Source of the DNA: Betaproteobacteria bacterium | GTDB taxonomy: Bacteria; Pseudomonadota; Gammaproteobacteria; Burkholderiales; SG8-39 | DNA length: 64,000 nt | Assembly: GCA_016210745.1 (NCBI GenBank) | Contig: JACQTO010000149.1 | Span: forward strand, 1 to 64,000 | Direction of reading: 5' to 3' | Translations under genes and position numbers: made by a program | Shown: positions 57,451 through 63,023 of the stretch, piece by piece | Layout: each line of letters starts with the position of its first letter | Position numbering within the stretch: position 1 is the first letter of the stretch | Notes under the pieces: generated by a model | Told to the model about the DNA's origin: nothing | Databases searched by the model: none | What the model saw: the letters and a program-made list of their open reading frames with translations, nothing else

Positions 57451-57547
57451 TGGTGGCACTATAGCTGAGGCGCGCGATCCCGACAAGGGCGCCCAAAGCG
57501 CGCCCAAGGGAAGCCATGTCGACCGCGGAGCGAATTTCATACAGTCG

Positions 57548-60500
57548 TCATCCCGCCGTAGTCGCAGAAGGTCTGTGCCGACGCGAGGATTCCATCGCCA
57601 TTGAAAGATCGAGCACGGCCACGTTCGTCTGGAACCGATCTTCCTCGGGCACCATCCCGGAAAGCAGCTCGATCAGGCTCTGCGGCGTAGTTGGCCGCTC
57701 CCCCGCCGGCGTAGCTCTCGGATTTAAGCCGAACCACAAAACTAGGTAGATACCCACACCTTCAGACGCAGGGTCGAGCGTATACGTGCGCAACTGCGTA
57801 CGCCACGCCGACCACAGTTCACGATTATCTTCCTTCTTGATTTCGATCGGCACCGTGAACCGTCGGTCGGGCTGAAAATATTCCGCGCGCATGTCTGCTC
57901 TGGTATCTTGCGCGGCTTGGCCCTCCTTCTCGAGCTTGACGCCTACATTCACTAGCCGATTTCGCATGCGGTCGAGCAGTATGTCCCGGCACTCGTTTTC
58001 TGTCTTCGGCGTTTCCCGGTCGTCGCGCCGGAACAGGAGCAGTCCGTTGGTGTCGTCGCCGTGGAGCCGCGCTCCGACGTCTCGCAGATGATCCAGGAAG
58101 AGCGCTGCCAGATCCCGGGAGTTTGCTGGCGCCCTGTTCGCGAGAACGTTGGCGACGTCGTCAACGCTTGGCTGCTTGAACGTGGCATCGCGCATCGCTC
58201 GCGACTGGTCGAAAGCGGCGCCATCGAGCGCCAGTTTCCACCGGTTCAGTTTTCGCAAACCCGCTAGACGCGCGATCTCTTCTGCCGCCTCGGCCGATGC
58301 TGCGGAGGCGAGCTGATTTATGAGGTGATGAGTCCATTCTCGCCTGTGGTCGGCGTCTCCGACCGAGTGCACGCCTGTCGGGTATTCGGGAGAGGCGTGC
58401 GGCCCGATTAGCTCGATTAATAGACTAGTCGCTAGGATAGGCAAAGGAATAGCGTTCTTCGTTCGTTTGCCCTGCAACTCGATCGCCCGGCCAAGATGTG
58501 CAGCGCGAGACTCGCTCGTGCCGACAAACTCAACAAGCTTGCTGGAATAGCCTTCGCCATCGATTCGCAGCCCGGCGACCAGGTATGCGATGCGCTGCCC
58601 GGTATCGAGGCTCTTGAGGGCTGTACGCTCTGCGAGCAGAGCTGTGACTTGTTCCGATGACAGCCGGCTGGTCGCCGGTAGGAGCTCTCCATTGAGAATT
58701 CGCAGTTGCTTTTCATTTGCCCGAACCGGAAAAGCACGCAGGATTGGGGGTACGACGAGGCGGGCAAGATCCGCGAAGCGGTCCTCTCGCGCCAACTGCC
58801 AAAGCCCAGTCACGTTTGTCACCGAGCGGCGCCGTATTGTCTGCATCGCGTACTTCTCCAGCACCGGCGCGATGATCGTTGGCCGTGTTTCCGCCAACGC
58901 AGAGAACCACTCCGGTTGATCGCCAACTCCATCGGTAAGCCAGAAGGCGGCAAGCTTGCGAACAAGGTCGTCAGGCCAGCTCAAGATTAGCTTCGGATCG
59001 CGCTCAAATACGAGAGAGGCACCCAACAGGCACGCAGGGCGGATAAAGTGCGAGCGGCCCCCGAGGTCAGTCTTGAGAATGTCGTCAACGTCCGGAAGGT
59101 CCATGCGTGCCGGCGTCGCCTCCAGCCCGCCAATCGCCGATTTCGCCTCTTCAATGGTGCCGCCAAGAAGATCCTGGACCCGCTCCTCCGGTGTTTCGCC
59201 GCGAATGTCGCTGTAGCGCCTGTCGTATGCCAACGCGATCTGGTGCATCAACCCGGGAGGCGCTGTGCCCCCGGCTATCGATGCAAGGTGCGGCAGGAAG
59301 TTGCGGCGGCGCTCGCGCCGCGCGGTCTCTCTCTCCGCGTCGTACGAGCGCCTTCTCTTTAGTTCTTCACTTCGAAAGTGATCCAAGGGTAAAGACCAGG
59401 CGCTCTTGAGCCACTCGCATGCCTGCGGCCATCTTTCCTGGTTCAATTCCACCCATTTCTCGACCGCTTCCATGCTCAGGGTGAATTCCGGTCGCGGATT
59501 GATGGCGGCATACGCTGCAGAATCGAAGCAGTCGCGCGCCAGCGCTTCGTCGTCGGTTGCGCTAGCTTGGTCGAGCAGCCATTCATACCAATCGGCCGGG
59601 CGCGCTGCTCCCAGAGTACGCTCCTCGCTTTCCCACAACCGGCGCCTGCCCGCGCCATCGGTCCGAACCTGAGTCCAGCCGTATGCGACGAGCGCTTTGA
59701 GTTTCGACGGCCTCGCGCTAAGCCAGTCTCGCGCGAGACGAACATCGTCTTCCGGCAGACGGGAAAAGCCGTATTCGTCAATTGCGATGCCAAGCCATCT
59801 GTGCAGCGTCTCGATCGGGATGTCGTCCCCGTGTTCCTCCAGTGCCGCCACTAACAACTTGGTAGCAACACTGTCCAGAAAGAAACCAAATTGTCTGCCG
59901 TCGACCATAATGGGCGCACTTGCCCACGCGTCCATGAGATTTCGGAGATCTTTTTGCGGAGTGCGGTCGACAAGTCGGTGCTGCCAGAAGTGCTGATACA
60001 ACCCGTAAAAAGATTCTGTCTTTGGGGCGCGAAAATACCCGGCAATCTCGCTCGGGGTCACGATTTCCGGATAGAGTCGGTCGAGCAGCCGCCCTGCGAG
60101 TTGATCGTCGGGGTCGACAATTCCGCCAGCCTCAATGTCATCGAGCATCGTCCGGGCTACTGCCATGTCAGGCGTACGCTGGACCATCCAGGCATCTAGC
60201 GCCGCCAGGCGGATGTCTGACGAGAAGCTGGCATCGCGAATGATTGCCCTAAGGTCGGGTGCCAGTTTCGGCATCAGCTCGCCATACTCGATCGCGTCAA
60301 GCACGCATCCAAGCAAGGACTGGTGCGCCAGCGAACGATCCGACTTGGCCAACAGCTCTTGAAAGGTATCAGACATGTCTTCCGTTCCAAGAGCGCCAAA
60401 CGGATGGTCCTCCCAGTGGCCTTTGCGGAACCATGCAAAACGCTGCGCCTCCCGGTGAAGGGCGCGCAGGACCCGGCTCTTCTCTTCGGTCGTGAACAAC

Positions 60501-61645
60501 CTGAGATCGCCATAGAGAACGACACCGAGCGGATCGCGTTCAATGAGCGCGGGACGCACCTGTTCGCAACGGGTGGCTAGCCAGGCGTTCAGACCGCGCA
60601 GAGGATCCACGATCCCGCCGTCCGCACCGCTCATCAACGCTAGAACGCGCCCGACGGGCAGTCCATTCTTGATCCGCTTTGCAATGACTGCTGCCGCCAG
60701 GAATTCGGCAATGGTCCGGTGACGCGGAATGCGTTGGCCGCAGTCCATCACGAAGATCTTGCTGTGGAGCGTTGCGCGTGGATCCGAGATACCAAGTACG
60801 TCGGGTAAGTCGTCAACGAGCCGTGCAAGATCTCCCTCTGAGACCAACTCGACCGAAAAACCTGGGATACCGGCGAGCAGATGCAGGGCACACATCAGTC
60901 CAGCGTCGTCCAGTATCCTGTCGATCGAGGGCTGATTGCGGCGGCGTTCTGCGCGATGTTCCTCGTTATATTCGATGGCGAGCTGCTCGCAGGCCATCGT
61001 ATAAATGTCCGTCCGGTTGTCCGGCCAGCGACCTTCGCGCTTTGCAACGGCGTTGACGATTAGGCCTAACAGCAGCGGGTTCCCGAGTAGTGAGCGGATA
61101 CGGTGTCGCTCCGACTCTACCAGGAATCCCTCCGGGTCTTCGACCCCAAGGCTGCGCAATATGGCAACAATGTCGGCATCATCTAGCTCTTCGAGATGAA
61201 GCACGGCCAGCTCGCCTTTCGACGCCACGGCCGTGAGGCTCTCGTTGTCAACCGCGCTCCTCCAGTCCGCTTCGCGACACGAAAGGCGAAACTTCGGTCG
61301 CCCCAACTCGTCCAGACGCCTCCGGACGTTGTCCAGCGGGGCTCGATGGGATTCGGACCCGGCTCGAATTTCGTCCAGTCCATCAATGAAGATCGGCGCA
61401 TCGGGTTTGAAACTCCGGGACCGCAACGTGATGAAATCGCGAGCGCTTGTATATTCCCCGCCCGTTTTTCGCGCCTCGCGCTTAAATGCTTCTGTCTTTC
61501 CGGCCCCCGGTTCTGCCAGAAGTACGTAGGCACCGATCCCACGCCAGCGTGCGAGGGGATGCGATTCTCGCGGACGTTCGGGAGAAAGCTGCACAGCTCG
61601 GCGCGGAACCACAAGAGGGAAACTCTTTTCCAAGTCGTCCTTCAA
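57548..61645 (-). CDS. 1365-aa NACHT/STAND-like NTPase with long helical middle and C-terminal PD-(D/E)XK nuclease-like domain
   Basis: Walker A LLAEPGAGKTEAF; Walker B IFIDGLDEIRAG; sensor-like KFRLSCREADW; C-terminal RADMRAEY...FTVPIEIKKEDN...WSAWRTQLRTYT...GVGIYLVLWFGL; start TTG overlaps upstream TGA. Confidence 0.8.
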   Translation of the reverse strand: MKDDLEKSFPLVVPRRAVQLSPERPRESHPLARWRGIGAYVLLAEPGAGKTEAFKREARKTGGEYTSARDFITLRSRSFKPDAPIFIDGLDEIRAGSESHRAPLDNVRRRLDELGRPKFRLSCREADWRSAVDNESLTAVASKGELAVLHLEELDDADIVAILRSLGVEDPEGFLVESERHRIRSLLGNPLLLGLIVNAVAKREGRWPDNRTDIYTMACEQLAIEYNEEHRAERRRNQPSIDRILDDAGLMCALHLLAGIPGFSVELVSEGDLARLVDDLPDVLGISDPRATLHSKIFVMDCGQRIPRHRTIAEFLAAAVIAKRIKNGLPVGRVLALMSGADGGIVDPLRGLNAWLATRCEQVRPALIERDPLGVVLYGDLRLFTTEEKSRVLRALHREAQRFAWFRKGHWEDHPFGALGTEDMSDTFQELLAKSDRSLAHQSLLGCVLDAIEYGELMPKLAPDLRAIIRDASFSSDIRLAALDAWMVQRTPDMAVARTMLDDIEAGGIVDPDDQLAGRLLDRLYPEIVTPSEIAGYFRAPKTESFYGLYQHFWQHRLVDRTPQKDLRNLMDAWASAPIMVDGRQFGFFLDSVATKLLVAALEEHGDDIPIETLHRWLGIAIDEYGFSRLPEDDVRLARDWLSARPSKLKALVAYGWTQVRTDGAGRRRLWESEERTLGAARPADWYEWLLDQASATDDEALARDCFDSAAYAAINPRPEFTLSMEAVEKWVELNQERWPQACEWLKSAWSLPLDHFRSEELKRRRSYDAERETARRERRRNFLPHLASIAGGTAPPGLMHQIALAYDRRYSDIRGETPEERVQDLLGGTIEEAKSAIGGLEATPARMDLPDVDDILKTDLGGRSHFIRPACLLGASLVFERDPKLILSWPDDLVRKLAAFWLTDGVGDQPEWFSALAETRPTIIAPVLEKYAMQTIRRRSVTNVTGLWQLAREDRFADLARLVVPPILRAFPVRANEKQLRILNGELLPATSRLSSEQVTALLAERTALKSLDTGQRIAYLVAGLRIDGEGYSSKLVEFVGTSESRAAHLGRAIELQGKRTKNAIPLPILATSLLIELIGPHASPEYPTGVHSVGDADHRREWTHHLINQLASAASAEAAEEIARLAGLRKLNRWKLALDGAAFDQSRAMRDATFKQPSVDDVANVLANRAPANSRDLAALFLDHLRDVGARLHGDDTNGLLLFRRDDRETPKTENECRDILLDRMRNRLVNVGVKLEKEGQAAQDTRADMRAEYFQPDRRFTVPIEIKKEDNRELWSAWRTQLRTYTLDPASEGVGIYLVLWFGLNPRATPAGERPTTPQSLIELLSGMVPEEDRFQTNVAVLDLSMAMESSRRHRPSATTAG

Positions 61646-62919
61646 TCAAGCCAATGCGATGGTTGGTAGCGCAGAAACTCACCCACCGGAAGATCTTCAC
61701 CGCCGACCACTAAAGTGCGGCAACCGCGATGACGTTGCGAAAACTCTTTCAATCCTGGAATCGTTGTCGGGTAGCTTCCGGTCTTTACCTCAACGGCGGC
61801 TAACCGCTTGCCGTTCCCTATCACGAAGTCAACTTCAAGACCTCCTTCCCGCCAATAATGCACCTTCATGTTCGCGTCGGCGGCATTGCACAGATGTGCG
61901 CCGACCGCACTTTCGACAAGACGACCCCAGTAGCTGCGGTCCGCACGCGCTTCATCAAAGCTGTATCCGCCCGTTGCACTGATCAGGGCCGTGTTGCGAA
62001 CCTGGAACTTTGGCGGCGACCGCCTCCTGCGCACCTCGTGGTCAGAGTACTTGAGTAGTCCGCGCAGCAATCCCGCCATGTCAAGTAGATCCAAGTAACG
62101 GCTAAGCGTAACGGTGTTTCCTTTACTCTTCAGCACGCCGAGAACCTTGTCCAAAGCGACGATCTGACCAGAATACGAGCAGCCGACCTCAAATAGTTGC
62201 TTCAATAGCGCCGGCTGGTCGACTCGCGTCATGTGGAGGATGTCTCTCTCGATGCTTGGCGCGACCAGGCTGTCGGCAACGTAGTTGCGCCACCGCTTCT
62301 CGTCATGGATCCAGGCAGCGCTGCCGGGGAATCCCCCGAAGTAGATGTACTGATCGAGACTCAGTCCGAACGCATCGTTCATTTCTTCGTACGACCAGTG
62401 CGCCATCCTGATCAGTTCAAAGCGGCCGGCAAGACTTTCTGAAAGCCCCTTTTGCACGAGCAGCGGGGAAGAGCCCAACAACAGGACGTGAACGGGCTGC
62501 GGGCTGCCCATGTTGGTATCCCAAAGTCCCTTTACCGCCTCGGACCAATTAGGAACCTTTTGAATTTCGTCAACTACAAGCAGGTAGGGTGTACCTTGTT
62601 GTCCGCGCGAATCCCGGCGCGCCATCCAGGTATTAGCCGCCATGGCCGCACGCTGCCATTGATCGACAAGCCACGCGGCGGTGATCTCGCGAGCCTGCGA
62701 TTGTGTTGTTGAGGCAAGAAAGTCTTGGCTTCCGACCTCCAAAGGAGTCGAGGTGGACTCGGCGGATATGTAGGTTGCGGAGGTCGAGTCCCGGTCCGCC
62801 AGGATCTGGCGAATAAGCGTTGTCTTGCCTACTTGACGGGGACCCGCCAGGATTTGTATGTGGCGTGGGGCCTCCGCTAGCCGGAGGCAGACAGTTTTTC
62901 CAATGGCGCGGCGGTACAT
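61642..62919 (-). CDS. AAA_14 ATPase with C-terminal DUF4143 (PD-(D/E)XK-like) domain
   Basis: Walker A ILAGPRQVGKTTLIRQIL; Walker B YLLVVDEIQKVPNWSEAVKGLWD; GLEVDFVIGNGKRLAAVEVKTG. Confidence 0.9.
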   Translation of the reverse strand: MYRRAIGKTVCLRLAEAPRHIQILAGPRQVGKTTLIRQILADRDSTSATYISAESTSTPLEVGSQDFLASTTQSQAREITAAWLVDQWQRAAMAANTWMARRDSRGQQGTPYLLVVDEIQKVPNWSEAVKGLWDTNMGSPQPVHVLLLGSSPLLVQKGLSESLAGRFELIRMAHWSYEEMNDAFGLSLDQYIYFGGFPGSAAWIHDEKRWRNYVADSLVAPSIERDILHMTRVDQPALLKQLFEVGCSYSGQIVALDKVLGVLKSKGNTVTLSRYLDLLDMAGLLRGLLKYSDHEVRRRRSPPKFQVRNTALISATGGYSFDEARADRSYWGRLVESAVGAHLCNAADANMKVHYWREGGLEVDFVIGNGKRLAAVEVKTGSYPTTIPGLKEFSQRHRGCRTLVVGGEDLPVGEFLRYQPSHWLD

Positions 62920-62924
62920 GCCAT

Positions 62925-62954
62925 ATTATGAGTTAATTTACTCATAACTGTAAA
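62925..62954 (-). promoter_or_regulatory. Putative promoter with overlapping palindromic operator upstream of the AAA_14/DUF4143 gene
   Basis: Minus strand TTTACA-18 nt-CATAAT with 8-bp palindrome TTATGAGT-AAATTA-ACTCATAA between/overlapping them (62926-62947). Confidence 0.5.
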
Positions 62955-63023
62955 CAACCACACTCCGTTCTCAGAAGTCCGACAGGCCCATTACGGTTGT
63001 GATCGGATGTTAGCGCACACTTC

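Follow-up and report, generated by a model that had tools for sequence, protein, structure and literature searches.

A probable two-gene variant of the EruA-type NACHT antiphage protein, with an AAA_14/DUF4143 partner and an operator-like palindrome

With reference to the 64,000-nt stretch of betaproteobacterial DNA studied here (the window; contig JACQTO010000149.1), two overlapping genes for an AAA_14/DUF4143 ATPase and a large NACHT protein raise the question of whether they form one functional unit, and what that unit is for. A first-pass annotation, made from the sequence alone, had proposed an undescribed defence or stress module. We consider the locus to be, probably, a two-gene variant of the EruA-type NACHT/STAND antiphage protein, possessing an AAA_14 partner that would bind an operator and a receptor-nuclease mechanism of action.

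The two genes and their products

Both reading frames are open and intact, which rules out a frameshift or a decayed gene, and their sizes agree with those given in the first-pass annotation, as 425 codons plus stop make 1278 nt for the small gene and 1365 codons plus stop make 4098 nt for the large one. The stop/start overlap of the form TTGA that had been described between them is present as well (Table 1). An in-frame stop immediately precedes the TTG of the large gene, and a clear Shine-Dalgarno sequence is absent 5' of this TTG. Alternative starts are offered by an in-frame TTG at 61633 and by GTG codons at slightly lower positions, all of them lying within about 35 nt, and a start at the TTG of 61645 is possible. 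In nearly all relatives, the two genes adjoin or overlap each other, with a hit-to-hit distance of -33 to +24 nt in most.

Table 1. Features of the two-gene locus, in window coordinates
Feature	Position	Strand	Details
EruA-like NACHT protein with C-terminal PD-(D/E)XK-like domain	57548..61645	-	1365 aa; NF058535, 979.9 bits
AAA_14/DUF4143 ATPase partner	61642..62919	-	425 aa; PDC-S01, model PDLC04791
TTGA stop/start overlap of the two genes	61642..61645	-	TGA stop 61644-61642, TTG 61645-61643
NACHT Walker A (residues 44-52) to Walker B (residues 86-92)	61370..61516	-	invariant in 63 paired homologues; NLRC4/NLRP3/Avs4-like fold
C-terminal PD-(D/E)XK-like domain (residues 1216-1346)	57608..58000	-	E1216, E1241, D1251, E1268-x-K1270, Q1284xxxY1288
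AAA_14 protein Walker A (AGPRQVGKTT, residues 25-34)	62818..62847	-	G31, K32 in 60/60 paired homologues
PD-(D/E)XK-type motif in DUF4143 (E362-x-D364 ... E377-x-K379)	61783..61857	-	conserved residues
Putative winged-helix recognition helix of the AAA_14 protein (TVTLSRYLDLL, residues 269-279)	62083..62115	-	sequence reading only
Operator-like palindrome TTATGAGTTAATTTACTCATAA (core 62929-62944)	62926..62947	.	ends 7 nt before the AAA_14 ATG
Predicted sigma-70 promoter	62947..62974	-	-35 about 62969-62974, -10 TACAGT 62947-62952, from family alignment

The large protein aligns with the NCBIfam model NF058535, named 'NACHT domain-containing antiphage protein EruA', over 1325 residues (24-1348, on model positions 11-1318), displaying the same layout of NACHT module, helical middle and nuclease-like domain. 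Full-length similarity to EruA and the NACHT module are both present, though the score does not reach the curated equivalog cut-off of 1000 bits; other paired members score 702-997 bits. Recognised EruA is solitary, whereas the window gene is overlapped by the AAA_14 gene and its branch of the family has both this partner and an operator-like palindrome. HyoA (NF058534), a related NACHT antiphage protein, is a weaker second match, confined to the middle part of the protein and, at 120 bits, far under its cut-off of 1200.

A Pfam search of the large protein gave no match, including NACHT (PF05729), and the NACHT assignment is based on the NCBIfam match and on fold comparison. Of the earlier description of this region, the Walker A (AEPGAGKTE) and Walker B (FIDGLDE) motifs stand, but the P-loop is preceded by 43 residues and not by about 35; this short stretch agrees with the statement that an N-terminal effector is missing. 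K50, D88, D91 and E92 are invariant across the 63 paired homologues. An AlphaFold2 model of residues 1-620 (pLDDT 91.7) has NLRC4 (E 2.9e-7), NLRP3 and the phage-sensing Avs4 as its best solved fold relatives, Avs4 also being a significant match, and together with the NCBIfam match this bears out the earlier STAND/NACHT reading.

At the C-terminus, where a PD-(D/E)XK nuclease had been suggested, the E-x-K lies within PIEIK, and the paired homologues retain E1216 and Q1284 in 63/63, D1251 in 60/63, E1268 in 62/63 and K1270 in 61/63. The AlphaFold2 model of residues 1000-1365 (pLDDT 91.5) consists of helices followed by an alpha-beta-beta-beta-alpha-beta core, so that PD-(D/E)XK topology and the D...E-x-K residues occur together. 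The model thus shows a nuclease-like fold, the absence of which would have counted against the first-pass annotation; its fold matches are led by the restriction enzymes FokI and SwaI and the Holliday junction resolvase Hjc, none of them significant by E-value. A search by sequence for solved structures found none. As modelled, the large protein is a STAND/NACHT NTPase with a C-terminal PD-(D/E)XK-like, nuclease-like domain.

The call of AAA_14/DUF4143 for the small gene holds, as both Pfam domains exceed the gathering score (AAA_14, 81.7 bits; DUF4143, 80.8 bits), and the protein scores 514 bits on PDLC04791, the PADLOC model of the defence candidate PDC-S01. Its residues E362, D364, E377 and K379 are each retained in 59-60 of 60 paired homologues.

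Pairing across genomes and genomic context

EruA-like loci were gathered from whole genomes and species genomes. Among 86 decidable full-length loci, an AAA_14 gene of one subfamily lies directly upstream in 62, is fused in one more, and in another (L106) is likewise paired at a wider gap. In the tree of EruA-like proteins, 64 of the 71 members of a single branch (support 100), the window included, are paired, making the adjacency, whose rarity would have counted against the earlier proposal, the rule. These members come from Proteobacteria, Acidobacteria, Gemmatimonadota, Bacteroidota, Actinobacteria and others. Recognised EruA (L002-L008) forms a separate branch and is unpaired in 7/7. In a Thermoanaerobaculia MAG (L114, 8615-14170), a single ORF of 1852 codons fuses the two proteins, with AAA_14-DUF4143 at 33-458 followed by EruA at 461-1851.

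The pairwise distances of the two partners are correlated (Mantel r 0.84 against a permutation maximum of 0.21, 60 pairs), and the AAA_14 proteins are better conserved than the EruA-like ones, with mean identities among paired members of 52.5% and 33.1%, respectively. Across 399 genomes of the order, the top-scoring AAA_14 genes of the subfamily adjoin EruA in 7/7 cases and the lower-scoring ones in 0/14, a clear score split in a ranking that is partly circular, as the subfamily profile was made from paired members. The nearest solitary AAA_14 genes are without EruA. Since AAA_14 proteins of the paired subfamily were never seen without EruA, while EruA does occur without the partner, the partner appears to depend on EruA more than the reverse. 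Three unpaired EruA-like genes (L143, L084, L088) were observed directly downstream of ilvD, at the same site in Pseudomonas and a related genome, and apparently represent partner loss; such branch members and the recognised EruA proteins suggest that the partner is not universally needed. In another case (L101:3-4515, contig cut), the gene before the EruA-like one encodes a DUF4143 protein that belongs to another PDC-S01 class (PDLC04789), perhaps an independent pairing of the two kinds of protein.

The gcv operon and an RND pump flank the unit in the window, as previously described. Tandem glycine riboswitch aptamers of the ordinary kind (Rfam RF00504, 57247-57454, minus strand) were observed upstream of gcvT. 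Synteny with a sister genome (G447) stops at 57487, after which other genes follow, the RND pump also being missing there. A full-length EruA-like gene was found in 0/3 congeners, which together with the end of synteny argues that the unit is accessory; a search of relatives for a clean empty site revealed no precise insertion joint.

Additionally, 139 neighbour proteins of the paired homologues matched 38 PADLOC models and 139 control proteins matched 4, a roughly controlled comparison, because several of the 38 models share a protein hit and the controls were drawn from different genomes. The matches include BrxL, DpdF, PsyrT, MzaA, MzaE, DarG and another PDC-S01. This enrichment of defence genes is supportive only. 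Many homologues adjoin housekeeping genes, as the window unit does, and the window site itself is no defence island. The earlier idea of a defence module is supported in part, by the type of family and by the neighbours of the homologues but not by the window site, and it is from homology and context that we infer a defence role. As separate observations, a type I modification gene comes next after one paired locus on a contig from a viral collection (L189), and a P2-like prophage contig carries an unpaired EruA-like gene (L185:1921-13973) between its gpD tail and replication initiator genes.

A palindrome upstream of the AAA_14 gene

The present analysis adds a palindrome 5' of the AAA_14 gene, with the consensus TTACnnTAnTGAGTAAATTTACTCAnTAnnGTAA. 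With at least 12 of 16 core matches, it was detected in 61 of 69 paired loci, compared with about 1.4% of random 180-nt stretches (some true sites included) and one of 20 unpaired EruA genes. The bases outside the fixed core vary among loci yet remain complementary across the dyad, giving a covariation score of 0.405 against 0.154 when shuffled and 0.08-0.15 when slid, which is what a symmetric DNA-binding protein of diverging specificity would leave. The core of the window palindrome is itself the only exact match in the 5.2-Mb genome, arguing against a host regulon and in favour of a factor encoded by the operon itself. One paired operon (L059) has two full palindromes, located about 92 and 26 nt 5' of the AAA_14 gene.

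In the aligned upstream sequences, a TTGACA-like element lies 17 nt 5' of TACnnT, which is the left arm of the palindrome. With the -35 and -10 elements so placed, the palindrome core would span roughly positions -4 to +12 relative to the start of transcription. A simple promoter scan gives another placement (TTTACA/CATAAT at 62954-62925). Judged by its sequence, the palindrome is operator-like and would overlap the AAA_14 promoter.

As for the protein that binds it, half-sites occur 5' of five of 19 solitary AAA_14 genes, compared with 2.4% of random stretches and two of 20 unpaired EruA genes, and also before an AAA_14 remnant (L222). Of all columns in the AAA_14 alignment, that of residue 270, near the beginning of the putative recognition helix, carries the most information on the base next to TGAGT: 19/19 T-sites go with Thr270, and 15/18 other sites go with another residue. 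Tree-independent pairs of changes at this residue are all concordant on symmetric sites, but they are few and not significant, and for the other two variable operator positions the mutual-information peaks in the AAA_14 alignment do not fall in one place. The tracking of the operator base by residue 270 is suggestive only. Taken together, the half-sites at solitary AAA_14 genes and this tracking make it likely that the AAA_14 protein binds the operator and regulates its own gene, which we offer as a lead rather than a result. Six loci (L216, L222, L223, L224, L128, L210) also have clustered TGAGTAAA half-sites with spacings of about 5-6 nt, some beside solitary or remnant AAA_14 genes and others without AAA_14 in view.

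It is improbable that the palindrome acts as an RNA hairpin controlling translation or as a site for a host factor, and either would concern regulation only, being compatible with the rest of our explanation. A hairpin would fit the location of the palindrome at the start codon, or across it, in several loci and the mismatches across the dyad, where G-T is depleted less (63 against 82 expected) than A-C (36 against 63.6). Nevertheless, with the aligned -10 in the left arm, transcripts would begin inside the palindrome and miss half of it, so the covariation is not favoured as that of an RNA hairpin; the single exact copy in the genome speaks against a host regulon, and the recurrence of half-sites at solitary and remnant AAA_14 genes also counts against this alternative.

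Possible roles of the pair and relation to known systems

In the literature searched, we found no paper on antiphage EruA or HyoA, on the pairing of EruA with AAA_14, or on DUF4143 in phage defence; the antiphage phenotype of EruA is taken from the NCBIfam family name, and the EruA of the literature searched is an unrelated E. coli regulator. Still, 'undescribed' was too strong a word for the module, given that the large protein falls just under the EruA cut-off and the small one is a PADLOC candidate. PDC-S01 is reported to rank fourth by frequency among the defences of prokaryotes, and most PDCs still await experimental validation (PMC12988326). It is counted as a one-gene candidate, whereas here one PDC-S01 subfamily is tied to EruA. 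PDLC04791 gives higher scores to solitary AAA_14 genes with housekeeping neighbours than to the EruA-paired ones and does not tell the two kinds apart, and PDC-S01 counts may therefore mix different biology. bNACHT25/32 use a PD-(D/E)XK DNase (PMC12169576) and share the NACHT/STAND module with Avs4 and with the large protein. However, their effector is N-terminal and the nuclease-like domain here is C-terminal, and the bNACHT/Avs layout of N-terminal effector, central STAND and C-terminal sensor is not matched by the large protein.

In the mechanism that we propose, the AAA_14/DUF4143 protein would use its putative winged helix to bind the palindromic operator that overlaps the AAA_14 promoter, the bound form probably being a symmetric dimer or oligomer. 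Expression would thereby stay low and follow the level of the AAA_14 protein. The EruA-like protein would serve as an NLR-like receptor, having a NACHT ATPase and a long helical array as sensor, and its C-terminal PD-(D/E)XK domain would be the likely DNA-cutting effector. Upon infection, the presumed trigger, the receptor would oligomerise, helped or licensed by its AAA_14 partner, possibly within a physical complex, and would then degrade DNA, so that the phage is stopped and the cell sacrificed. The most likely role of AAA_14 in the pair is that of a DNA-binding regulator or co-effector.

The main rival, to which we give a low but real probability, makes the AAA_14/DUF4143 protein the effector in trans, with the C-terminal domain of EruA binding or sensing DNA. 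It draws on the missing N-terminal effector of EruA, on the intact and nearly invariant PD-(D/E)XK motif of the AAA_14 protein, and on the L114 fusion, in which AAA_14-DUF4143 stands directly N-terminal to NACHT, the canonical place of a bNACHT effector (PMC12169576); but the catalytic residues at the EruA C-terminus are equally well conserved, and solitary EruA proteins exist without any such partner. Overlapping genes, an autoregulation-type operator and a partner encoded upstream of the nuclease would also suit a regulatory or toxin-antitoxin-like pair, in which AAA_14 mainly keeps a toxic EruA nuclease in check and the unit chiefly serves selfish persistence or a stress response instead of phage defence. 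This is rather unlikely, as EruA-like genes lack the partner in many genomes, and both the name of the family and its NLR-like fold indicate defence. That the genes are neighbours merely by chance or shared mobility, without joint function, is very improbable, even though solitary members of both families exist: the pairing extends over many phyla and through 64/71 of the branch, and the fusion, the co-inheritance seen in the Mantel correlation and the exclusivity of the subfamily led us to reject it.

A bolder version of the proposed receptor-nuclease mechanism, which we put forward as speculation and think unlikely, is that AAA_14 seated on the single lineage-specific palindrome silences the EruA nuclease, the palindrome being the guarded object. 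A phage that degrades, unwinds or seizes the host DNA would release AAA_14, derepressing the operon and activating the receptor, and changes in AAA_14/operator specificity would keep related copies insulated from one another.

Few defence candidates of prokaryotes are as common as PDC-S01 (AAA_14/DUF4143), and the literature searched describes no mechanism for it. The tie of one of its subfamilies to an NLR-like receptor, together with the fusion and the operator, provides a concrete and testable partner and regulatory site, and the pair offers a STAND protein for which the product of a second gene appears to fill the usual N-terminal place.
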